Translations under genes and position numbers: made by a program
The notes under the pieces: generated by a model
What the model was told of the DNA's origin: nothing
The model's input: only the letters and a program-made list of their open reading frames with translations
Database searches by the model: none
From: a virus
Strand: one strand, 5' to 3'
IMG/VR virus record: IMGVR_UViG_3300025846_000392
Coordinates: 1-39,086 of that record
Length of the DNA stretch: 39,086 nucleotides
Shown here: positions 1 to 14,439 of the stretch, piece by piece
Layout: every line of letters begins with the position of its first letter
Position numbering within the stretch: the stretch's first letter is position 1

Positions 1-1587
1 ATGCCGGCAGCTCTCACATTGCAGGAACGAGCACAATGCCTGCTGATTGTCAGAAATCGACAAGTCAGTGAGGGCACCGCAGTTCCTGCTTCTAGTGTGA
101 GCAAATACGCAAACGACCCCGTGGGGTTCGTAAGAGATTGCTTCAGTTGGAAGCCCGGAGAAGGTGCCACCCCCTATCAAAATGATATTATGCAAGGCCT
201 TGTGGAACACAGGCGCGAGAGCGTTCGTGGTCCTCATGGTCTCGGCAAGACTGCTTTAATAGCTTGGATGGTGCATTGGTTCGCACTCACTAATGACGGT
301 GTAACCGATTGGAAGATACCTATCACAGCAAGCGCTTGGCGGCAGCTCACGAAGTTCGCGCTGCCAGAGGTACACAAGTGGGCAAGACGCTTGAATTGGA
401 GTGTCATTGGGCGCCTGCCTTACAACGAGCGCTATGAACTCACTAAGGAATCCCTTCACTTAAAGACAGGCGAAGCCTTTGCTTTGGCAAGCGATAACTC
501 TACCATGATAGAAGGTGCTCACGCTTCGCGCATTCTTTATATCTTCGACGAGTCGAAAGAGATACCCGTGGCCACATGGGACTCTGCCGAAGGCGCGTTC
601 TCGATTGGAGATACCTATTGGCTATCTGCCAGTACACCTGGTGAGCCGGTTGGTCGCTTCTATGATATACAGGCTCGGAGACCTGGGTACGAGGATTGGC
701 ATGTTCGCCACGTAACCAAACAAGAAGTAATCGATGCGAACAGAATGTCGCCAGAGTGGGCGGATGCAAGAAAGAAGCAGTGGGGTGAGCAATCTGCAGT
801 TTATCAGAACCGCGTTGTGGGCGAGTTTGCCTCGTCAGAAGCAGACGGTGTGATTCCACTCACGTGGGTGGAGGCAGCCAACGAGCGTTGGTTCGAAATT
901 ATGGATGTATCAGAGTACAGCCCAAATATAAATTATGAGAGTAAACTCAAAGAGACTCACCCTGAACTTGCATTCCTATGCGTGGGTGCAGATATTGCTC
1001 GCTCTGGTGAGGATAAGACTGTTTTGGCTCCACGCTACGCGAATGTGATTCCCGGCCTACGGGTCACAACCCGAGAAGACACGATGCAGACTACGGGCAG
1101 GATCAAGGGCATCCTTGATGCAAATAAAGGCAAAGCCCTTGTCGATGTAATCGGTATCGGAGCAGGGGTCGTAGACCGCTTACGCGAAATGAAGTATCAG
1201 GTTATACCCTTCAACGCGTCAGAGCACACAGATTACATGGACTCAGCTAACGAGCTGGGATTTATCAACTGCCGCTCCGGGTCATGGTGGCACATGAGAG
1301 AGCTCTTAGACCCTGCTAACGGACACAACATCGCGCTCCCGCCTGATGACCTGCTCACAGGTGATCTGGTTTCACCACATTGGAAGGTCACTTCTGGGGG
1401 TAAGATACAGGTCGAAGGCAAGGATGACATAAAAGTACGGATCGGGCGCTCAACGGATTATGGCGACGCCGTGGTTATGGCGTTCTTTGATAACAACTTC
1501 CTTTCGCTGCAAAGCTGGACAGAGGCGCTAAAGCGTTTCACGCCGGCTATAAAAGTTACAAGAGGTGTGAGATATGGGAATAATTGA
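1..1587 (+). CDS. terL: Terminase large subunit (DNA-packaging ATPase/nuclease)
   Basis: This is the motor that cuts concatemeric phage DNA and pumps it through the portal into the prohead. The N-terminal ATPase half has a Walker A motif GPHGLGKT at residues 77-84 and a Walker B-like stretch ILYIFDES near residues 177-184, where Asp-Glu supply metal binding and catalysis. The C-terminal RNase H-like nuclease half shows VGADIARSGEDKT around residue 330 and DVIGIGAGVVDRL around residue 383, which carry the usual acidic residues. Its 528 residues are normal for the family. The ATG is the first base of the window, so the true start could lie further upstream. No small terminase is in the window. 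The 3' end overlaps the portal gene by 14 bases, indicating translational coupling. Confidence 0.93.
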   Translation: MPAALTLQERAQCLLIVRNRQVSEGTAVPASSVSKYANDPVGFVRDCFSWKPGEGATPYQNDIMQGLVEHRRESVRGPHGLGKTALIAWMVHWFALTNDGVTDWKIPITASAWRQLTKFALPEVHKWARRLNWSVIGRLPYNERYELTKESLHLKTGEAFALASDNSTMIEGAHASRILYIFDESKEIPVATWDSAEGAFSIGDTYWLSASTPGEPVGRFYDIQARRPGYEDWHVRHVTKQEVIDANRMSPEWADARKKQWGEQSAVYQNRVVGEFASSEADGVIPLTWVEAANERWFEIMDVSEYSPNINYESKLKETHPELAFLCVGADIARSGEDKTVLAPRYANVIPGLRVTTREDTMQTTGRIKGILDANKGKALVDVIGIGAGVVDRLREMKYQVIPFNASEHTDYMDSANELGFINCRSGSWWHMRELLDPANGHNIALPPDDLLTGDLVSPHWKVTSGGKIQVEGKDDIKVRIGRSTDYGDAVVMAFFDNNFLSLQSWTEALKRFTPAIKVTRGVRYGNN

Positions 1588-4500
1588 TGCGTTAAGAGGA
1601 TTTGCGCAAGGAATGCGCACGACCGTGCCTAACTCACGAAGTATAACCACATTGCCTGGAACAGGGCTTATAGATGTGGTCGATACGTCGAAACCGCCAA
1701 CACGCTACAACGTGCCTGGGAACTGGTCTCGAGCTTTGCTCGGGCCTGGGCAGCCTTTCTCGTCTGATTCTTCACAAACTGCTCGCGGAAAGGACGCCGA
1801 GAACGAACCTCGCTCCTTCCAGTACATCTCGTCAGTGAACAGCACGATGTCTCCACGTCTTGCGTACGGTTTGGCCGCGTTTAGTGATTTACGTGCATAC
1901 GCAGAGTCTGTGCCAGAGGTCTCAATGTGCTTACGCCTGCTGACTGAAGAAATGAAAGCCTTTGTGCCCACTATCGTCGACGACACGAAGACGGAGATCA
2001 AAGACTCGAAATACGAGTGGATGATCGAGAGGCCGGATGGGTTCAACCCCTTCCCGGTCTGGCTTAGCAAGTTCTTATACAACACTCTCATTTATGACGC
2101 AGGTTGCGCGTACATGGTGCGCAATAGTCAGAAGAAGATTGTTGGCTCCCGTGTAATCGATGGTTCGACTATCTTCGTTGTAATCGACGAGAGAGGCGAG
2201 CAGCCAAGACCACCGGCGCCTGCCTTCCAGCAGATTATCTGGGGCGTTCCACGGTTATTCATGAACACCCGCCAACTCTGGTACAAGCCTCGGCATTTAC
2301 GCGCTGATGCTCCCTACGGGAGGTCGCCTATCGAAGATAGCCTACCTGCAGTAAAACTGCTGCAGTCGCTGTGGGACTATGAGTATCAGAAGTATCAAGT
2401 CGGTAATATTCCTGAAATGGTATTTACGGTTCCAGAGAACTGGAAAGACAATGTAGACCAGATCCTCGAGTTCGAACTCGCGTTCAATGCTCGCATGGCA
2501 GGTAATACAGAGGAGCGCGTGCGTGCACGATTCCTGCCTGCTGGCATGACCACCCTTAATACTAAGGAACTCACGTTTAATAAAGAAAGCTACGACGCTG
2601 CCACGAACGCAGTTCGCATGTCATTCGGCATCCTGCAATCTGAGGTTGGCGAGGGCCCCAATGCAGGTCTTGGTGGCAAGGGCTACGCTGAAGCGATGCA
2701 ATCTGCATTCTATAGAATGGGGCTAGCTCCGCTTATATCATATGTGGAGAGTCACTTCAATGACATCATTGCCATGAACATGGATAACGGCATGAAGTTC
2801 AAACTGGAGTTTCCTGCGGAAAGTTTGGATCCTTCCAAGGAAGAAGAGAAGTTCGCGACACGCTTCCAGATCGGCGGCATCAAGCGCGACGAGTATCGGC
2901 AGGGCATTGGCATGACAGCGCTTAAGGGTGAGGTAGGTGAATTCATTGTACAACCCGGTGGAGCCGGGGGTGAGGGTGAAGACCCGTTCGGTGCACCGGG
3001 TAAACCCGGGATGATTAACGTGGGCAACTCGAAGAACGTGCAGGTCAGGCGACCTCTCAAGGTCCTCGACAACCCGCTCAACGTTTTGAAGAATCCTGTG
3101 CCAGTCAGCAAGCTAGAAGGTTCCCCTGCTCTTACAGAAGAACAAGCCAAAGAAGTTGGTGACAGACTAGGAGTGGATTGGGACTCCTTTGATTTAGGTG
3201 AATTTGCAATAGGCCTTGGAGATGAGCAAGAACATGCTGATACCGTTGGAAACGACGTCAACATGATAGCGCAAATCGCGTTGGACCACATGAGCGAAGA
3301 CCCGCAGTATTATACGAAACTGAAAGAGCTATTTAACAAATTCGATAGTGTAACGCTTGCTAAAGCGATAGGCGTAGACCCTGAAGACGACATGCTGTTT
3401 GGCACGGAAATCGTGAACATACAGGACGTCAAGATGCCGCATCAAGGTGCGAACGAATCCATGATTGTCAGCATTGGGAGTGGCGCGATGGACTCGCGTC
3501 CCGCGGTCTGGAAGCCCGCAAGCGGTGAGAAGCCTGAACTCGTGGAGTTTGTAGGTGGTGAGTTGTTCCGGCGTGCCGAGGCAGTCTACCTGCTTGACCG
3601 AGAGCTCTCACCTGATGAGAAGCACTATCTCGTGCCACTTTCGTACATGACCCAGCAGGGCGACGACGAGGGCAGCGTGCAGCACTATATAACGCACCGT
3701 AAACCTCGCAAGGTTGTTACAGCTTATGAGCCGGAGTGGGTTGAGCGTGCTGCTGTGCTTGACTACATCTCAGGGCAGCTTGACAGAAAACAAAAGAATT
3801 ATCTCACACACCCCTACAACGAGAAGCGCCCTGTCTTGATAGACAGTGAGCTATCGTTCTCGCCTGATGCGAAGAAGCGGATCAAAAGTTCCTTTGTTGA
3901 GGCGTATCGTGGAGAGCCCCTCGCAGATAAGACCCTTGACAGCATCTTCCTAGCATTAGGCAATCACGACCTGTGGGAAGACCTGCAAACCTGCCTTGAC
4001 GACGAGCAGGCTGTTAGCAACGCGCGCGCAAGAGCGCAGGAGATTTTAGATGCAGGTATGCTGCCGAAGGCGGACAGCGCGTCGCGCCAGATACTCGTGA
4101 AGTATGATGAGAGTAAGCATCCGCGTAATGAGAATGGCGAATTCATAAAGTTTGACGAGAGCGAGCATCCTCGTGATAAGGATGGTGAATTCACGGACGC
4201 AGGCGGAGGTAGCAATAGTGGCGCAAACCCAAAAGGTGAAGCACCTGCCGGTGAAGATAATTCGACAATTAAAGACACGGTGTTATCAATAGCTAAAGAT
4301 ATTGCTGATGCTAAAAACGAACATTGTTATGTTGTAGATCCTGAAACAGGGAAAGTTTTGAGTTCAAAAGAGGGGCATAAATATGGTTTTAAGATGGATG
4401 AGGGCAATGAATTCTATAAAGGAAAAGTGACAATGCACAATCATCCTGGCGGCAGCGCGTATGCTAGGTTTTCAGAAACAGACATCTGGAGTGCGCATCT

Positions 4501-4756
4501 TGTGGGTGAAAAGCAGATGAATATAGTCGCGGGAGATTATATAGTTTCTGCTACACTCGAACCAGGATGGGAGATGACAAATCATCAGGTGTGGAAAGCC
4601 AATGAGTATATGCAGCAAGAGGTTGGAAAACTCAGGGGAAACGACAATTTCCATTATTTAGAAAGTTGGGGCGCTAAAAATCCTGAGATTCAAAAACTAT
4701 ACGTTGAAGCGTATAAACTTCTTGGCTTGAATGTGACCTACACGAAGTGGAGATAA
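1574..4756 (+). CDS. Portal protein with C-terminal DUF5661-like, kinase-like and JAB peptidase-like domains
   Basis: Residues 1 to about 480 read as a phage portal, the ring at the head vertex that docks terminase and tail. At 1060 residues the protein is about twice the usual length. After a proline- and glycine-rich linker, residues about 517-590 (EEQAKEVGDRLGVDW, then IAQIALDHMSEDPQYY) look like the DUF5661 family. Residues about 629-835 look like a PI3/4-kinase or HipA-like fold, with VWKP as a possible nucleotide-binding Lys, LDYISGQLDRKQKNYL as a catalytic-loop-like motif, and LIDSELSF as a metal-loop equivalent. Two linker motifs start at residues 843 and 859 (KYDESKHPRNENGEF and KFDESEHPRDKDGEF). 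The last 160 residues contain HNHPGG near 955 and SETD near 967, the metal-binding signature of JAB/MPN metallopeptidases. The portal and JAB calls are firm; the kinase call is an inference from short motifs. Confidence 0.85.
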   Translation: MGIIDALRGFAQGMRTTVPNSRSITTLPGTGLIDVVDTSKPPTRYNVPGNWSRALLGPGQPFSSDSSQTARGKDAENEPRSFQYISSVNSTMSPRLAYGLAAFSDLRAYAESVPEVSMCLRLLTEEMKAFVPTIVDDTKTEIKDSKYEWMIERPDGFNPFPVWLSKFLYNTLIYDAGCAYMVRNSQKKIVGSRVIDGSTIFVVIDERGEQPRPPAPAFQQIIWGVPRLFMNTRQLWYKPRHLRADAPYGRSPIEDSLPAVKLLQSLWDYEYQKYQVGNIPEMVFTVPENWKDNVDQILEFELAFNARMAGNTEERVRARFLPAGMTTLNTKELTFNKESYDAATNAVRMSFGILQSEVGEGPNAGLGGKGYAEAMQSAFYRMGLAPLISYVESHFNDIIAMNMDNGMKFKLEFPAESLDPSKEEEKFATRFQIGGIKRDEYRQGIGMTALKGEVGEFIVQPGGAGGEGEDPFGAPGKPGMINVGNSKNVQVRRPLKVLDNPLNVLKNPVPVSKLEGSPALTEEQAKEVGDRLGVDWDSFDLGEFAIGLGDEQEHADTVGNDVNMIAQIALDHMSEDPQYYTKLKELFNKFDSVTLAKAIGVDPEDDMLFGTEIVNIQDVKMPHQGANESMIVSIGSGAMDSRPAVWKPASGEKPELVEFVGGELFRRAEAVYLLDRELSPDEKHYLVPLSYMTQQGDDEGSVQHYITHRKPRKVVTAYEPEWVERAAVLDYISGQLDRKQKNYLTHPYNEKRPVLIDSELSFSPDAKKRIKSSFVEAYRGEPLADKTLDSIFLALGNHDLWEDLQTCLDDEQAVSNARARAQEILDAGMLPKADSASRQILVKYDESKHPRNENGEFIKFDESEHPRDKDGEFTDAGGGSNSGANPKGEAPAGEDNSTIKDTVLSIAKDIADAKNEHCYVVDPETGKVLSSKEGHKYGFKMDEGNEFYKGKVTMHNHPGGSAYARFSETDIWSAHLVGEKQMNIVAGDYIVSATLEPGWEMTNHQVWKANEYMQQEVGKLRGNDNFHYLESWGAKNPEIQKLYVEAYKLLGLNVTYTKWR

Positions 4757-4757
4757 G

Positions 4758-5690
4758 ATGGATAAAAACGTGAGTTTAGTTGATGACAGCACTTTGGATG
4801 CAGAATGGCAAGCAATTCTTGACGGTGCTAAGAAATTAGCAGAAGAGGAAGCTGATGGCCTCACGAAGTTCGACGAAGCCGAGCACCCTCGCGACGAGAA
4901 CGGTGAATTCACCGACAAAGGTGCTGGCGCAGGGGAAAAGACCTTTAGTGCCGCAGTAAGAAATAATAAGGATGGGGAAACTTCTGTTATAAATTCCAAA
5001 TATAAATCTAAGCAGGAATTCCGTCAGGATTTGAACCGGAATGGTTATAGTGTTGTTGGCAGGGTTACTGAAGAAGAGCCGAAGGAGCAGGCAGCGCCTG
5101 CTGCGCAGGAACTTGACTACGACCAGAAGTATGACTGGGCGACTAAAGTGGTCACAGGTGAGCTCGCAGGTAAAATCAAGAATAATGAGTTATTGACTGA
5201 TATGCAGTCATGCGCAATGGGTGACGAAACGGAAGAAGAGTTTACGTCACACTTCTCGGCTTCGGCGGAGCAAGACACGCTGCCAAAAGCGAAGAAGCCG
5301 ACATCAGACGATTCCGGCTGGATGTTCCACACAGACTCCGGCAAGATGCCGCCTGAAATGATGTACTTCTTCCAGCAGCATTATAAGAAGAACGGCGATG
5401 GAAGCCAAATTATTCTGCCGAGTGAGTTGCGAGAATATTCCAATGGGGTTTTAGACGAACAAACTCTTAGTGGTATTTACTCAAAGAATTTAGATGGCAA
5501 ATACTTTCAGTGGGAGCGCTCCGGCGGCTTGAATCAACTGCGGTTGAAAAATAAATATAAGTTCTCCGCCGCTGGCATTGCTTCCGTAGAGGAATCGAGG
5601 CTGAAAGCGCTTAAGGATGCTGGCATGACTCCTAAGCGGCTTTATAAAGAAATTCAGAAACTCCGACCAACCGCGAAAGCAGAGTCCTAA
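4758..5690 (+). CDS. HPRD-linker protein with an unrecognised C-terminal domain
   Basis: The 310-residue product is not recognised as a whole. After a short acidic N-terminal helix it carries the shared linker (KFDEAEHPRDENGEF from residue 37, then a Gly/Ala-rich stretch). It continues with an Ala/Glu/Pro-rich spacer near residues 95-115 and a C-terminal region of about 190 residues rich in charged and aromatic residues, ending in a basic helical tail. The same linker precedes catalytic domains in the portal, in the MuF protein and in the following small protein. By analogy this C-terminal region may be another packaged effector, but no catalytic motif was recognised. It starts one base after the portal stop, and its stop overlaps the next start (TAATG), so it belongs to the head operon. 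Confidence 0.72.
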   Translation: MDKNVSLVDDSTLDAEWQAILDGAKKLAEEEADGLTKFDEAEHPRDENGEFTDKGAGAGEKTFSAAVRNNKDGETSVINSKYKSKQEFRQDLNRNGYSVVGRVTEEEPKEQAAPAAQELDYDQKYDWATKVVTGELAGKIKNNELLTDMQSCAMGDETEEEFTSHFSASAEQDTLPKAKKPTSDDSGWMFHTDSGKMPPEMMYFFQQHYKKNGDGSQIILPSELREYSNGVLDEQTLSGIYSKNLDGKYFQWERSGGLNQLRLKNKYKFSAAGIASVEESRLKALKDAGMTPKRLYKEIQKLRPTAKAES

Positions 5691-7549
5691 TGCGCCAAAC
5701 CGACTACCGCCGCCGCAACACCATGCTCAACGAGCAGATAGCTGAAGACCTGCAGCAGGCTGCTCAGGCAGAGCTTAACTGGCTGTTCAGGCAACTGCGA
5801 TACAAGGTCAGGCGCTTGGACGCGCGTCGCGCGAAAGTGGTCACAGGGCGGCCAGCGTTGTGGAAGTTCGATCCGAGCGAAGCTCGCGACGCGGACGGGA
5901 GGTGGACCACCGGAGGTGGGGGTGAAGATAAGCACCGTCAAGCAATCCTGTCTGGTATGAGTGGTCGCTGGAAAGGTTACATCAATATATTCCGAGACCT
6001 TGATATGGACGCGAGTACGTTCGATGAAAAATTGAACGAGCTTTTGCACGATGGGGTTATAGAGCACAAAGAATCAGTTAATCCGGGCAGGAATGCTGAC
6101 GTTGACCTGTATAGGATAAAACTCTCAAAATCCTTCCTCGTCCCCTCGAGCTCACGCCTGCAGAAGTCTTACATTGTGTCAGGGAACCTGTGGGATACGT
6201 TCGTCGAACGTATGACGAGGGCTATCCTAAAGGCGCTCAAAGACGGGGTCATCAAGTTGTTCGACCTGCAGCGCAAGCACGCCGGCGGGCCGGAACCGGT
6301 GGAGTATAGTTCAGAAGCATTTGCGAAGCAAATAGAACCCGAACTCGGTAAGCGTATCGTGGGTGAGACTGACACGATAAAACGCATGGTAGGACGACGT
6401 GTGGTGGGTTGGTACAACTCCCCGGGTGCTACGATGCAGTCCTTGGTAGATCAGTTAAAGCCGACCTTCGGTGAGACGCGAGCGAGGCTCATTGCTCAAA
6501 CTGAAATCACGTACCTCGATAGCGCCGTGAAACGCATGACCGCCGAGAAGACCGGTGCAACCGAATGGTGGTGGTCCTCACGGAGGGACAGCATTGTGTG
6601 CGTGAAGCCGTTGATCGGACCCGATGGGCAGATTTACAAGGGCTGTCGTGAGCTGCATGGCAAGGTCTTTAATATTGGCTTACCGATGCCACCTGGCGGA
6701 AGCCATATTGGCTGCAGGTGTGGGGCAGTCATCATGCGTGTGAAGCGCGTGCGCGCGGATAAACCTGCTACGCAGGTCATTGAAGGCTTAATGAAGTTCG
6801 ACGAGTCGGAGCACCCTCGCGCCAGCGACGGGGAGTTCACGGATAAGGGCGCGGGGAGCGGCAACGGGAGCGTTGTGTTATCAGAAACAGCCGAGAAATT
6901 TTTGAGTACTGACAGAGAAAAGCTTGAGACGACTGATGAAGAAGAAATAAAAAGACTGAACCAGTGGGCAGAGGACTATGAAAATTCAAATAGAATGTGG
7001 AGAGAGGCGATTGCGAACAAAACTAGCCCTGGTGGAGTAGTTCAGCGTCCTTGGAATTTTGATGACGAACCCGAATGGTCTATAAACGCTAGAGATGCGT
7101 ATGTTGTAAACGACCCGAGAACCCTGCGGCGCAATAGCGCTCTAAGGAAAGGTGAATCCGTACCTGAAAGCTGGACTAACCAAATTGACAAATGGACACA
7201 ATCTTCTACAATTGCCAAAGACACTACGGTTTATCGAAGCGCTCTTTTTAGTGATAAACAGCTAGAAGAATTAAAGGTTGGGGGCTCATTCGTAGATGAC
7301 GCGTATATGTCAGTTTCGAACGATATTGATTTAGCCAAACATTATGCTGGAATTAGACAAGAAAAATCTTCTGGTAGCGCCGCTTTATTTTATATTTCTG
7401 TTAAGAAGGGTCAGGAATGTGGAGACGCAGGGCAGGATGAAATTGTATTCCCGAGAGGAAGCAGCTTGATTATAACTAAAATAACTCCTCCCTCGAGCAA
7501 TTCACCATTAGACGAGAATTCTTATTGGAGGATTTATGCAAACAAGTAA
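5690..7549 (+). CDS. MuF-type minor head protein fused to an ADP-ribosyltransferase domain
   Basis: The product has an SPP1 gp7/Mu gpF-like head morphogenesis domain at residues about 240-355, marked by RARLIAQTEITYLDSAV and the terminal PPGGSHIGCRCG signature. Such proteins sit inside the head near the portal and may be ejected with DNA. A degenerate linker (KFDPSEARDADGRW) starts at residue 59 and a canonical one (KFDESEHPRASDGEF) at 369. The last about 130 residues form an ADP-ribosyltransferase of the Arg-Ser-Glu class. It has Arg516 in VYRSA, Ser541-Val-Ser543 in YMSVSND as the STS element, and Gln582-Asp-Glu584 followed by IVFPRGS as the catalytic loop. The catalytic loop reads QxE rather than the more common ExE; in other ARTs QxE goes with modification of Asn or Gln rather than Arg. 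The start overlaps the previous stop by one base. Confidence 0.9.
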   Translation: MRQTDYRRRNTMLNEQIAEDLQQAAQAELNWLFRQLRYKVRRLDARRAKVVTGRPALWKFDPSEARDADGRWTTGGGGEDKHRQAILSGMSGRWKGYINIFRDLDMDASTFDEKLNELLHDGVIEHKESVNPGRNADVDLYRIKLSKSFLVPSSSRLQKSYIVSGNLWDTFVERMTRAILKALKDGVIKLFDLQRKHAGGPEPVEYSSEAFAKQIEPELGKRIVGETDTIKRMVGRRVVGWYNSPGATMQSLVDQLKPTFGETRARLIAQTEITYLDSAVKRMTAEKTGATEWWWSSRRDSIVCVKPLIGPDGQIYKGCRELHGKVFNIGLPMPPGGSHIGCRCGAVIMRVKRVRADKPATQVIEGLMKFDESEHPRASDGEFTDKGAGSGNGSVVLSETAEKFLSTDREKLETTDEEEIKRLNQWAEDYENSNRMWREAIANKTSPGGVVQRPWNFDDEPEWSINARDAYVVNDPRTLRRNSALRKGESVPESWTNQIDKWTQSSTIAKDTTVYRSALFSDKQLEELKVGGSFVDDAYMSVSNDIDLAKHYAGIRQEKSSGSAALFYISVKKGQECGDAGQDEIVFPRGSSLIITKITPPSSNSPLDENSYWRIYANK

Positions 7550-8075
7550 GATTAAACCGATGAGCAGGCTTGTGTGGGAGTCGTTGGACTTCGAGTGGCT
7601 TCATAAAGCTGACTTCACGAAATTCGACGAGAGCAAGCACCCCCGCAGGGGCAAGGGGCCGCAGGGTGGGGAGTTCGCGTCCAGGGGCACAGGGAGTGCG
7701 GGGGGCAAGTGGAATCATTACACGAGCGCAGAGAACGCAACGTCTATCCACAAGGAAGGTTTCAAAAATTTCTCGAACGGCATGTTTGGGCAAGGTGCTT
7801 ATTTTACCTCAAAGAGTGATGACAGACCCGGAAAGGCGCGTGTTTCTGCAACATCAAATCTCAAGAACGTGCTGGAAACGACTTACGAGGACTTCCCTTC
7901 TAAGTATGAAGAATTGACTGGCGAGAAGTATTTGGGCGGGAACGGACACGAAGAAGAGTACCTGCAAGAGCTTGGGTATGATGGTGTACACGTGGCTGAT
8001 GTTGAAAAAGGCGAAGATTGGCTTGTTGCGTTTGACCCAAAGGGCATAAACGTAGAACTAGAGGAGGTTGTCTAA
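7536..8075 (+). CDS. HPRD-linker protein with a PARP-like/PolyVal-type ADP-ribosyltransferase domain
   Basis: The 179-residue protein begins with a 28-residue leader and a variant linker at residue 29 (KFDESKHPRRGKG, then QGGEFASRG). Its C-terminal domain opens with NHYTSAENATSIHKEGF (His61), continues with GMFGQGAYFTS (Tyr89), and ends with GYDGVHVAD and WLVAFDPKGI. This is the pattern of H-Y class ADP-ribosyltransferases, including PARP-like domains of polyvalent proteins and toxins in phages. No third catalytic residue can be assigned with confidence. The fold differs from the R-S-E class domain of the upstream MuF protein, so the locus encodes two unrelated-looking transferases. The start lies 14 bases inside the MuF gene. 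The stop overlaps the next start (TAATG). Confidence 0.75.
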   Translation: MQTSKIKPMSRLVWESLDFEWLHKADFTKFDESKHPRRGKGPQGGEFASRGTGSAGGKWNHYTSAENATSIHKEGFKNFSNGMFGQGAYFTSKSDDRPGKARVSATSNLKNVLETTYEDFPSKYEELTGEKYLGGNGHEEEYLQELGYDGVHVADVEKGEDWLVAFDPKGINVELEEVV

Positions 8076-8274: not shown

Positions 8275-9672
8275 ATGCAGCTAACAATCCCGAACTTATG
8301 GAAAGCTAATACGATTACTGACATCAATATAGTGAAGGCCACCTATCCAATGGTTATCCTACGAGTAGGATACGGCTCCGAGAAGGATGAGAAGTTCGAA
8401 GAGAATTACAAGAAGCTAACCGACGCGGGCGTGCCTGTGGGGGTGTTTTATTTTCCATTAGACCAGTACACCTCGAAGTATATGGTAGATTTGTGCATCA
8501 AGTGGATGACAGGCAAGACAATTCAGCTTCTGGCTCCTGATGTGGAACACCCTGCTCCGGGATACGGAAACACACTAAGCAAAACGACTGTAGACGGTTT
8601 CATCGCCGAGTTCGAAAAACGAGTGGAAAAGCCGGCTATTTACTCGAGTCTTGCACGTTGGCTAGAAATAATGCAGAACACCGCGCAATATGCAGGTTAT
8701 GTAAATTGGGTTTCAAACCCGGGCTCTGCAAGCCCTGCAATGCCAGCAGGCTGGACCACCTGGGGACTCTGGCAGTTCTTGTTCAACCAGGACGTGCCAG
8801 GTATTACTGGCGGCGTGGATTTGAATTACTTTCATTCTGAAGAGCTAGCAAAGCTAAAGCCATTTACGATCGGGGAACCCCCACCAACGCCTGAAACATC
8901 CAACGTGTTATGGGTAGGCAGGGTGAATGGCTCACTCGGCTTGAACGTTCGCGCAACCCCTGCTACTAATGGTAAGTACCTTAGAACCCTGTCATATCTC
9001 ACGGATGCCAACGTGTACGAAGTACAAGGCACTTGGGCTAGGATTAACTCTGCGAAGCAGGAATGGTGCTATATCGCCCCTGACTGCCTTGTCAAGAAAG
9101 TGGTTGTTCCCATCCTGCCTCCTGTTGTATTGCCACCTGCTTCCGGCGGGGCAATTGATGTTAGCACGTTCCCGTGCTTCTCGCAGCGCGACCCAAGATG
9201 GGCAAGCGACAAGCTTGGGACCTCTGATTCCACTATGGGCGGCTGGGGCTGTGTTGTGACCGCTAACGCGACTATCTACAAGTATTACGGTATTGATACG
9301 GACCCTGGGCGTCTCAATAAATCAATGATTGGCTGGGATGGCTACGACAATACGAATCTCTGGCGGTGGTGGACACCCTCGCTGTATTTACCAATTGCAT
9401 GGGCGCGTGAGCCTGCAGGTACGACCTCACGGACGCGAATTGACCTTGTCAGGGAGCTTACATCACAGGGTATACCCCCTATCTTATGCGTGGATTTTAA
9501 TCTGGCGCAGACAGACCTGCAAAGCCACTTTGTTGTGGGCTTAGGTGTCACGAACGATAATGATGTGCTGATTATGGATTCTTGGGATGGGAAAATTAAG
9601 AGTTTCAAATCCGCCTACGGGTCTCCACTCTGGGGTATATGGCGCGTAGACATTTATCGAAAGACCGGGTAG
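8275..9672 (+). CDS. Multidomain endolysin: GH25-like domain, SH3-like domain, C39-like cysteine peptidase domain
   Basis: This enzyme is predicted to degrade host peptidoglycan at lysis. Residues 1 to about 205 resemble GH25 muramidases, including ILRVGYG, VPVGVFYF, an Asp89-Val-Glu91 pair in LAPDVEHP, and GLWQF. The Asp normally found in an N-terminal D-x-S-x-W motif is not obvious; the sequence reads IPNLWK, so muramidase activity may be altered. Residues about 212-285 form an SH3-like wall-binding domain (LGLNVRATPATNGKYLRTL). Residues about 290-465 match Peptidase_C39_2-type domains: FSQRDPRWASDKLG, Cys326 in GGWGCVVTA, His418 in SHFVVGLGV and Asp in IMDSWDG. There is no signal peptide, so export would rely on the holin-like proteins encoded at 28728-29542. 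Two lytic activities in one protein is plausible but not proven. Confidence 0.88.
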   Translation: MQLTIPNLWKANTITDINIVKATYPMVILRVGYGSEKDEKFEENYKKLTDAGVPVGVFYFPLDQYTSKYMVDLCIKWMTGKTIQLLAPDVEHPAPGYGNTLSKTTVDGFIAEFEKRVEKPAIYSSLARWLEIMQNTAQYAGYVNWVSNPGSASPAMPAGWTTWGLWQFLFNQDVPGITGGVDLNYFHSEELAKLKPFTIGEPPPTPETSNVLWVGRVNGSLGLNVRATPATNGKYLRTLSYLTDANVYEVQGTWARINSAKQEWCYIAPDCLVKKVVVPILPPVVLPPASGGAIDVSTFPCFSQRDPRWASDKLGTSDSTMGGWGCVVTANATIYKYYGIDTDPGRLNKSMIGWDGYDNTNLWRWWTPSLYLPIAWAREPAGTTSRTRIDLVRELTSQGIPPILCVDFNLAQTDLQSHFVVGLGVTNDNDVLIMDSWDGKIKSFKSAYGSPLWGIWRVDIYRKTG

Positions 9673-9676
9673 ACAA

Positions 9677-10216
9677 TTGATTACAAATAATTGCGGGGTT
9701 TATAAGATTACTAACATCATCACCGGCGGCTACTACATCGGGAGTTCATGTAATATAAGAAACAGAATTTATCATCACCGTTGGCAGTTAGTTAACAACA
9801 CACATGGCAACCGCCACTTACAACGAGCATGGAATAAATATGGCGTAGACAACTTTGAATTTACCGTCGTCCTGCTGTGTGAAATAGAATATGTGATTGA
9901 AAGGGAACAATTCTATATTGACAATGAAAAACCCTATTACAATATTTGTCAAATAGCAGGAAGTTGTCGTGGGATTAAACTTTCAGATGAGTGTAAGCGC
10001 AAACTAAGCGAGGTCAATACAGGCAAGCACCACACTAGCAAAACTAAACTTAAGTTGAGTAAATTCAACAAAGGCAAACACTTGTCAGAAGAGCATAAAC
10101 GCAAGATAAGTGAATCAAATACAGGAAAACACGTGCTATCAGATGAAGCACATGCGAAAATGAGCGCGGCGCATAAAGGCAAGCCGTGGTCTGATGCACG
10201 TAGAAAGGCAGACTAA
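9677..10216 (+). CDS. GIY-YIG homing endonuclease with NUMOD3 repeats
   Basis: The 179-residue protein is a GIY-YIG nuclease: GVYKITN and GYYIGSS form the signature, followed by NIRNRIYHHR with the catalytic Arg region, and IEREQFYID with the metal-binding Glu. The C-terminal half contains at least four NUMOD3-like DNA-binding motifs of the type LSDECKRKLSEVNTGKHH, LSEEHKRKISESNTGKH and LSDEAHAKMSAAHKGK. Such enzymes are usually selfish elements that cut a cognate site and spread by homing. It starts with TTG at 9677, just after the endolysin stop; there is no ATG nearby and no good ribosome binding site, so coupling is likely. It stands free between genes rather than in an obvious intron. 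The coding sequence is noticeably more A/T-rich than the endolysin. Confidence 0.9.
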   Translation: MITNNCGVYKITNIITGGYYIGSSCNIRNRIYHHRWQLVNNTHGNRHLQRAWNKYGVDNFEFTVVLLCEIEYVIEREQFYIDNEKPYYNICQIAGSCRGIKLSDECKRKLSEVNTGKHHTSKTKLKLSKFNKGKHLSEEHKRKISESNTGKHVLSDEAHAKMSAAHKGKPWSDARRKAD

Positions 10217-12618: not shown

Positions 12619-14439
12619 ATGCCGGAACCGATTAACATGTTCATCCCCATCCAAAAAGTAAATGCCGCGCGGCGTGAGGTGTGGGGTTTTGCCGCAATTG
12701 AAGAGCCAGATAATTCTGATGAAATCCTAGATTATGAGTCCTCCAAACCACACTTCTTAGATTGGTCTAACAAGGCGCAGAAGCGCTCAGGTGGCAAGAG
12801 TTTTGGCAACGTGCGCTCAATGCATCAAAATATTGCAGCCGGAATATTACTTGAGCTGCGACCCGATGACGTAAGCAAGGGCTTCTATGTTGGCGCTAAA
12901 ATCATCGACGACGGCGAGTGGAAGAAAGTCGAGAGCGGTGTTTACACAGGCTTCTCGGTCGGCGGGTCGTACATCAAACGATGGTCAGACTTCAGAAATC
13001 CTGGGAAAATGCGTTACACGGCTAAGCCGACTGAGCTCTCTATAGTAGATTCACCCTGCATACCATCCGCCACATTCGAAATGGTGAAAGCTGACGGCAT
13101 CAGTAAGACTGTGCACTTCAAGCCTACCAATGGTGAGAACATGATAGAGGTTGTCAGAGATAGCAGGCTTGTGAAAGTCGTGCGAGCGGGAGAGCTCACT
13201 AAGTGGGAAGAGCAAAAACATCCACGCGCCAAAGATGGTGAGTTCACCAGCAAGGGCTCCGGCGCTGCCGGGGGTGGTAAAACCATTGATAACACAAGTC
13301 ATGAAGAGTTGCGCACAGAGTCCATGCAACGGCAAAAGGATATAAAGACCCTTTCGGACGTTAGAGGCAAGATGCGTGGCGAGCAAGATAAATTTCAGGC
13401 TGGGCAAAGCAAAGCACCTGCTAAGCAGCCTGCTCACGACCCCGCCGAAGACGGCACGTTCGGTCAAGGCGGCTGGACCGGGAATATTGACAGTAATGGC
13501 AAGGAAGAACCTATTCCACCGCGTGCTGAGAACCGCATTGGCGGAAAAGAGTTAGACGAGCAAGGCGGCACGCCTGCGAAAAGCAAAGATGATGATTGGG
13601 CTTCAGACGACGAGACATTAAAGGAAGGTGAAGACCAATATTCTGGCCTGCCTAAAAGACCAAAACCCGAAAGTCGTTTCTTTGACCCTGTACGACAAGG
13701 CAAAGCGCCTGCGGAGCAGCCTACTGCTAAAGAAAAGGAACAGCGAGTAAAGGAACTGAATTTCCAAATTGAACAAATGGGCCGTCAACGTGACAACCCC
13801 GAGTTCTCGTACGCGCGTGACGAAATGGTTGGTGGGATAGAGCGTCGCACGAAAGAGTTAAAAGAGTTGCAGGGTGGTGCCGCCGAAGGCAAAGCACCTG
13901 CGGAGCAGCCTGCTTCCTCTTCTGACCAAGCCCGTGCGGATACAGCGTCTGACAAATATGGTCAGAATCTCGCAAGAGAACATGACCGAGCCGTCGAAAG
14001 ACGAATGAAAATTGCTGAAAGGCTCTTTCAAAGCGGTCGTAATTGGCATAAAATCACAAAAGGAGACGTTATGAATAAACTTGAAAGGATTTATGAAGTC
14101 CTTGATGGCCTCGAGGAAGAGCTTCAGAAGGCAGATATTCCCGACTCCCCTGAACCTATCGCTGATATTCCCCTAAAGGGAGAATACGGCTCGGTTACAG
14201 TGGAGCAAATGCCAGCCCCAAGTGTGCTGCTCGAAATTGAGCCAAATTCTGAACCCTCGCAGGAAGTCCTTGCGACGCACGCAGTAAAATCGGAAGACCT
14301 GACCAAAGCGTTTGACGCCTGGCTGCCTAAGGTTGGTGTATTAGTGAAATCTATCGTAGCTGAGGCAGTTGCCGAGGCTATGGATGATTTAGAGAAATCT
14401 TCTGCGCCCGCGCGGAAAATTCGTGTTGTTAATAAGTGA
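12619..14439 (+). CDS. XkdF-like prohead protease fused to linker and scaffold region
   Basis: Residues 1 to about 160 resemble XkdF-type putative phage serine proteases that mature the prohead. His69 lies in RSMHQNIAAG, Ser113 in YTGFSVGGSY, and a third acidic residue in ELSIVDSPCIPSA. The shared linker KWEEQKHPRAKDGEF follows at residue 195. Then comes a long low-complexity, charged region with three repeats of the GKAPAEQP type (13408, 13699 and 13888). The last 122 residues are acidic and helical, like a scaffold, and begin at an internal ATG with its own strong ribosome binding site. A protease-scaffold pair upstream of the capsid gene is classical gene order. AAGGAG precedes the start. 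At 606 residues it is longer than typical proteases because of the fusion. Confidence 0.82.
   Translation: MPEPINMFIPIQKVNAARREVWGFAAIEEPDNSDEILDYESSKPHFLDWSNKAQKRSGGKSFGNVRSMHQNIAAGILLELRPDDVSKGFYVGAKIIDDGEWKKVESGVYTGFSVGGSYIKRWSDFRNPGKMRYTAKPTELSIVDSPCIPSATFEMVKADGISKTVHFKPTNGENMIEVVRDSRLVKVVRAGELTKWEEQKHPRAKDGEFTSKGSGAAGGGKTIDNTSHEELRTESMQRQKDIKTLSDVRGKMRGEQDKFQAGQSKAPAKQPAHDPAEDGTFGQGGWTGNIDSNGKEEPIPPRAENRIGGKELDEQGGTPAKSKDDDWASDDETLKEGEDQYSGLPKRPKPESRFFDPVRQGKAPAEQPTAKEKEQRVKELNFQIEQMGRQRDNPEFSYARDEMVGGIERRTKELKELQGGAAEGKAPAEQPASSSDQARADTASDKYGQNLAREHDRAVERRMKIAERLFQSGRNWHKITKGDVMNKLERIYEVLDGLEEELQKADIPDSPEPIADIPLKGEYGSVTVEQMPAPSVLLEIEPNSEPSQEVLATHAVKSEDLTKAFDAWLPKVGVLVKSIVAEAVAEAMDDLEKSSAPARKIRVVNK
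14071..14439 (+). CDS. Putative nested scaffold protein from an internal start in the protease gene
   Basis: AAAGGAG (about 14059-14065) lies six bases before an ATG at 14071 that is in frame with the protease gene. The 122-residue product (starting MNKLERIYEVLDGLEEELQK) is acidic and mostly helical, as scaffold proteins are. Lambda makes its scaffold Nu3 from such an internal start in protease gene C, so the arrangement is known in principle. The internal ribosome binding site is visible; separate translation is inferred. Confidence 0.5.
   Translation: MNKLERIYEVLDGLEEELQKADIPDSPEPIADIPLKGEYGSVTVEQMPAPSVLLEIEPNSEPSQEVLATHAVKSEDLTKAFDAWLPKVGVLVKSIVAEAVAEAMDDLEKSSAPARKIRVVNK

Follow-up and report, generated by a model that had tools for sequence, protein, structure and literature searches.

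The window analysed here, a 39,086-base IMG/VR virus record, comes from an uncultivated tailed phage and carries a gene for a 1060-residue protein in which a portal core is followed in a single chain by DUF5661, a kinase-like domain, two tandem copies of a linker motif (henceforth referred to as HPR) and a JAB-like C-terminus. The features of this gene, and the further HPR copies found in the window, are as follows:

1574..4756, + strand: portal fusion protein, 1060 residues, an open reading frame with identical copies in two further contigs
1799..3031, + strand: HK97-type portal core, residues 76-486 (PHROG 2662, E=7.6e-40; Pfam PF04860, E=7.6e-15)
3146..3331, + strand: DUF5661, residues 525-586 (Pfam PF18905, E=8.1e-17, above the gathering score)
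3371..4069, + strand: atypical kinase domain, residues ~600-832 (K647, E669, D737, N742, D757)
4103..4144, + strand: HPR linker copy 1, YDESKHPRNENGEF, residues 844-857
4151..4192, + strand: HPR linker copy 2, FDESEHPRDKDGEF, residues 860-873
4232..4753, + strand: JAB/MPN-like domain, residues 887-1060 (E916, H955, H957, S967, D970)
4869..4910, + strand: HPR motif close to the start of the protein encoded by the following gene, ORF 4758-5690
5867..5905, + strand: degenerate HPR-like motif FDPSEARDADGRW in the MuF-like gene, recognised in the sequence
6797..6838, + strand: HPR motif between the MuF-like (246-345) and ART-like (493-602) domains of ORF 5690-7549
7623..7676, + strand: HPR motif close to the start of the small ART-like protein encoded by ORF 7536-8075
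13204..13245, + strand: HPR motif after the XkdF-like protease domain of ORF 12619-14439

The initial annotation had described a portal reading frame of this length with extra domains, and this description held, as the frame was open and intact and both the portal and the DUF5661 parts matched their families, the Phage_portal match (PF04860) of the core lying above the gathering score. Two further IMG/VR contigs, which derive from other samples, contain the gene intact and identical in sequence, which rules out an assembly artefact as the origin of the fusion. Directly 5' of it lies the gene for the terminase large subunit, and on its 3' side are a MuF-like/ART-like gene, a small ART-like gene, an XkdF-like protease and a capsid-like protein; the family match over the core together with these terminase, MuF, protease and capsid neighbours places the protein among the HK97-type portals. 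As for these neighbours, both the MuF-like and the ART-like matches in ORF 5690-7549 fall below the Pfam gathering score, the Tox-ART-HYD1 match of ORF 7536-8075 is weak (E=0.007), and ORF 4758-5690, immediately after the portal gene, matched no family over its main part. Inside the head gene block there is also a GIY-YIG homing endonuclease with NUMOD3 repeats (9677-10216), which adjoins an endolysin with GH25 and C39-like domains (8275-9672). The host is possibly a member of the Chloroflexota, an assignment based on a single relative in a 4.7-kb contig (L019) of an Anaerolineales metagenome-assembled genome, which may be misbinned.

The region between DUF5661 and the linkers had been proposed to be a PI3/4-kinase or HipA-like domain from motif strings that are indeed present and correctly placed. 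The kinase-like part of this proposal is borne out by profile matches and by the invariance of the catalytic residues in eight fusions (see below), and the HipA part is not, since no HipA family was matched in Pfam, NCBIfam or PDB searches. The window sequence alone matched NCBIfam TIGR03843 (the SCO1664 family) at E=9.9e-15 but with 54.6 bits against a curated cut-off of 172.4, which makes it a relative and not a member of that family. When the window kinase was compared with Pfam as a single sequence, no family was matched; PF00454 (PI3_PI4_kinase) matched two of its relatives (L012, 2e-5; L174, 1e-4), both below the gathering score. A profile built from an alignment of five phage and 12 chromosomal sequences matched Fam20A (1.6e-10), PI4K-II beta (PI4K2B; 6.8e-10) and PI4K-II alpha (3e-8) in the PDB and, since it contains cellular sequences, these matches show the kinship of the joint phage and cellular family, the phage and cellular members of which align clearly across the KP..GE, DR and ID motifs. 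The ATP-binding Lys, the catalytic DRxxxN and the metal-binding Asp are all present (K647, D737, N742 and D757). An AlphaFold model of the kinase region from five sequences was of low confidence (pLDDT 50), and a Foldseek search with it returned mostly kinases as top matches, none of them significant (best E=0.12). Overall, the case for residues ~600-832 as a predicted kinase is strong, and the profile matches support the SCO1664 family, type II PI4K and Fam20 as its nearest kinds, not HipA specifically.

With the SCO1664 family, which consists of chromosomal PI3/PI4K-like kinases, the window protein shares the GxN...KP..GE...DR....ID motifs, whereas the phage members are portal fusions, carry N instead of H behind the DR motif and score 55 as against 172 bits; the likeness to type II PI4K and Fam20 is remote and consists in a profile match that covers the catalytic and metal-binding motifs. 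When the DUF5661-kinase part of the phage proteins was used as a profile, 134 of 301 Chloroflexota genomes yielded chromosomal relatives of either the kinase or DUF5661. One Chloroflexota protein of 418 residues (L149:1015-2271) has a kinase domain nearer to the phage ones than are the other chromosomal matches (E=7e-21). A HipA-like kinase gene has been reported between the portal and capsid genes of Gratiaviridae phages (PMC8008677); this too is a phage kinase from a related atypical clade and is encoded within the head gene block, but by a separate gene, whereas the window kinase is fused to the portal.

The roughly 580 residues that extend the portal had been considered rare. They are present but are not a one-off: with the exception of the JAB-like part, they are the rule in a clade of portals in which DUF5661 and the kinase follow the portal in a single chain, and which comprises at least eight distinct phages (the window, L008, L012, L014, L015, L173, L174 and L175). 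Compared with the window, the portal cores of these fusions are 33-77% identical and their kinases 36-62%, and K647, D737, N742 and D757 are invariant in all eight. The pairwise identities of portal and kinase correlate (r=0.85, 28 pairs), which indicates that the two domains diverged together, and, to judge from these sequences, the kinase is an integral part of the portal clade and not a sporadic addition. A search of 50,697 phage records found no portal-DUF5661-kinase fusion; the kinase part had no match there at E<=1, and the matches of the portal part were only 24-29% identical. The portal-kinase fusion of L014 (L014:7559-10510) has a zinc-ribbon-like insertion (residues ~231-272) within its portal core.

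How the kinase acts was considered in this light. Portal and MuF fusions to PBECR, 2H, Nudix, ART and InPase domains have been published (PMC5512222, PMC9503650, PMC5576092), and those to PBECR, 2H, Nudix and ART are read as effectors (PMC5512222, PMC9503650). On that model the portal kinase would be strictly a virion effector, which is cut from the portal at a site that escaped recognition here, packaged, injected and phosphorylates host targets at once, in the manner of T4 Alt with ADP-ribose. Such a role would suit the HPR motif that L175 has between portal and DUF5661, and the 2H phosphoesterase-like insertion that precedes the kinase in L015 and L174 (Pfam matches) and in L175 (sequence likeness). 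However, in most of the eight fusions the portal is joined to the kinase without an HPR motif, and the two domains have diverged as a unit, as expected of a stably attached domain, so that we consider a strict effector rather unlikely. The window protein does share with polyvalent and MuF-type head-packaged effectors its basic plan of a head protein with C-terminal enzymes encoded in the terminase-portal-capsid block; it differs in that its kinase is conserved across a portal clade and is not a sporadic effector.

In marked contrast to the kinase, the part beyond it varies. The initial annotation had pointed to a JAB-type HNHPGG/SETD metal site near the C-terminus, and both strings are present, with E916 as the candidate catalytic Glu; the signature is conserved in relatives, but the fold match is modest, a profile of the region giving RadC (2qlc) as its best PDB match at E=0.028 and BubCD as the third at 0.31, and Prok-JAB matching the window part at E=0.018. 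A plasmid protein of Enterocloster bolteae aligns with the JAB-like part at 32% identity (pairwise E=1e-8). MuF proteins from Dorea phage DO134P1, Streptococcus phage MissF and contig L140 align with it through their C-termini, and E916, H955, H957, S967 and D970 are retained in five of five aligned relatives, the MuF-fused ones included. Searched alone, the JAB-like part had no match at E<=1 in the collection of 50,697 phage records and no convincing relative in 400 Chloroflexota genomes (best E 0.0076), and its AlphaFold model was of low confidence (pLDDT 44). RadC, Prok-JAB and Tox-JAB proteins of the JAMM type share the E...HxHP...S..D signature with the window protein, which differs from them in that its HxHP and S..D are set two to three residues further apart, and in its weak E-values. 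We consider it likely that the C-terminal part belongs to the JAB group. Its role as a peptidase is putative, and for RadC-type and toxin JAB domains an action on nucleic acids has been proposed instead (PMC5512222, PMC3482391). Among the eight fusions the tails after the kinase range from 3 to 240 residues and are mutually unrelated: L012 has another domain after an HPR linker of its own; L008 has a repetitive tail that looks disordered, and no HPR motif in its portal; and the L014 chain stops after the kinase, with HPR motifs at the beginning of the two cargo-like genes that follow. This comparison shows the JAB-like part as a lineage-specific, apparently exchangeable cassette separate from the portal-kinase unit.

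The conserved residues of both domains also bear on whether the extension is enzymatic at all. Portal crowns and C-termini vary widely, and Fam20A, the best PDB match of the kinase, is a pseudokinase, so the extension could be structural or regulatory, with a kinase fold that is catalytically dead or serves assembly only (as a crown or in gripping DNA) and a JAB-like domain that is a passenger. Against this, the K/D/N/D residues are invariant in eight divergent fusions, among which the P-loop-like G/HxN stretch is also largely retained, and the JAB-like signature is kept in every aligned relative; we hold a purely structural extension to be improbable.

The two linker motifs between kinase and JAB-like domain had been noted beforehand and were found at the residues given above. 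A self-search of the genome recovered the 30-residue linker region in three more genes of the window, and a fourth was recognised by inspection, giving the consensus [FW]xExxHPRDxxGKFT. A scan of IMG/VR with a DNA pattern for EHPRDxxGxF[TA] returned at least 119 stretches, a sample that is not random, and among the matches listed there are 157 distinct HPR copies in 135 proteins, 50 of them within 60 residues of the protein start. Conservation is expected at the positions fixed by the search pattern or the counting expression; at positions not so forced, E occurs at position 2 in 89% and K/R at position 12, ahead of the F, in 78% of the matches listed, and a G-rich stretch comes next. When the flanks of the motif among the matches listed were compared with Pfam (counts are per family, and families may overlap within one protein), the 54 N-side segments contained Phage_portal_3 (6), Phage_portal_2 (3), Portal_Mu (1) and MuF (4), and the protease-type families DUF2213 (2) and S78 (2). 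The 100 C-side segments contained topoisomerase IB (7), zeta toxin (5), ADPrib_exo_Tox (5), Nudix (4), LPD3 (3), ART-PolyVal (2) and 2H (2), with single matches to GNAT, PBECR, a metallopeptidase and S78_2; no portal or MuF match and one protease match were found among them. Some N-side segments are cargo themselves, because proteins with several motifs string cassettes together. Isolates also carry the motif: Pseudomonas phage Orimi01 has the order portal-HPR-ART, Faecalibacterium phage FP_Brigit has portal-Nudix-HPR-tail, and gp78 of Gordonia phage Boopy, the gene of which adjoins the portal gene, has an N-terminal HPR. We read the motif, on this distribution, as a putative linker of cargo cassettes.

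Several proteins that bear the motif are of interest in their own right. Boopy gp78 (L177:4920-7124, 734 residues) appears by eye to contain a HipA/PI3K-like kinase followed by a ParB-like stretch, a weak ParBc_2 match being the sole family match found. Next to the portal of L014, a gene at L014:10501-12684 combines an HPR motif with a second PI3/PI4K-like kinase (PF00454, E=2.7e-5), and the other HPR-led cargo-like gene beside this portal has a DUF3626 match. The head block of L008 encodes a protein (L008:12348-13304) that has an N-terminal HPR and also contains a zincin-like HEMAH motif. A match to the anti-CBASS protein Acb1 (E=5.8e-39) in one HPR-flanked segment suggests that anti-defence enzymes may also travel as HPR-marked cassettes.

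Short sequences that act on head proteins are known. In SPN3US and in P1 (DarA), head proteins, cargo included, are cut by the phage prohead protease, and the propeptides of T4 reportedly direct proteins to the core of the prohead (PMC10052503, PMC12810830). The T4 capsid-targeting sequence and the prohead-protease sites of T4, SPN3US and P1 DarA resemble HPR in being short; they target head proteins, as HPR may do, and are cut during maturation; HPR differs in that it is often interdomain, in that its cleavage is putative and in its absence from the four major capsid proteins inspected, which are those of the window phage and of three isolates. This absence disfavours HPR as a universal maturation-cleavage site and, together with the 50 of 157 copies near a protein start, makes a tag fit at least as well as a processing site. 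A plainer account is that HPR is a mere flexible Gly-rich linker inherited with shuffled modules and functionless itself, which would suit the G/S-rich, probably disordered sequence that follows the motif and the single motif per isolate genome stretch among those examined; yet positions that the search did not force are conserved, and the motif precedes many unrelated cargo domains and lies in the N-terminal segment in nearly a third of the copies listed, so that we regard a plain linker as unlikely. The wider proposal that [FW]xExxHPRDxxG[KR]F[TA] is a general phage device is put forward tentatively, at a little under even odds: the motif may be a cassette-leading tag that marks capsid cargo enzymes across unrelated phages and is recognised in head assembly by a protease or a docking partner, and the kinase-bearing portals may use it to add a detachable enzyme.

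Overall, we favour, with a probability of about 60%, the view that the window protein combines a kinase that is integral to the portal with a detachable JAB-like cargo on HPR linkers. From the dodecameric stoichiometry of portals, twelve copies of the kinase would line the capsid-interior side of the portal ring, where the kinase probably phosphorylates a protein, either in head assembly or in the newly infected cell; it keeps its catalytic residues, and its profile matches fit a lipid, protein or sugar substrate alike. The JAB-like domain would hang on the end of the portal via the two HPR linkers as exchangeable cargo, brought into the head by its carrier as may also be the case for the downstream ART-type cargo, and would probably be released by a proteolytic cut in or close to the linker and leave the head together with the DNA. 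Because the linkers come after the kinase, a cut at this point would detach the JAB-like part alone, and the kinase would remain attached to the portal, which favours a portal-anchored kinase with detachable cargo over injection of both; and since the portal would stay behind when DNA is ejected and the window has no HPR motif between portal and kinase, injection of the kinase would need a further cut.

Fusions of enzymes to portal and MuF proteins as such are already known; what appears to be new is the kinase variant of the portal fusion, and the HPR linker is the more novel lead. Neither a PI4K/Fam20-like kinase or JAB-like domain fused to a portal nor the HPR motif was found described in the open-licence literature, although the motif may still be described elsewhere. 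If the clade-wide portal kinase is what it appears to be, an enzyme that is fixed in place and present in many copies would sit at the vertex through which the DNA of these phages exits. If HPR is a tag or a processing site, head-packaged phage enzymes would become recognisable from sequence alone, and the motif might find use in loading proteins into capsids.
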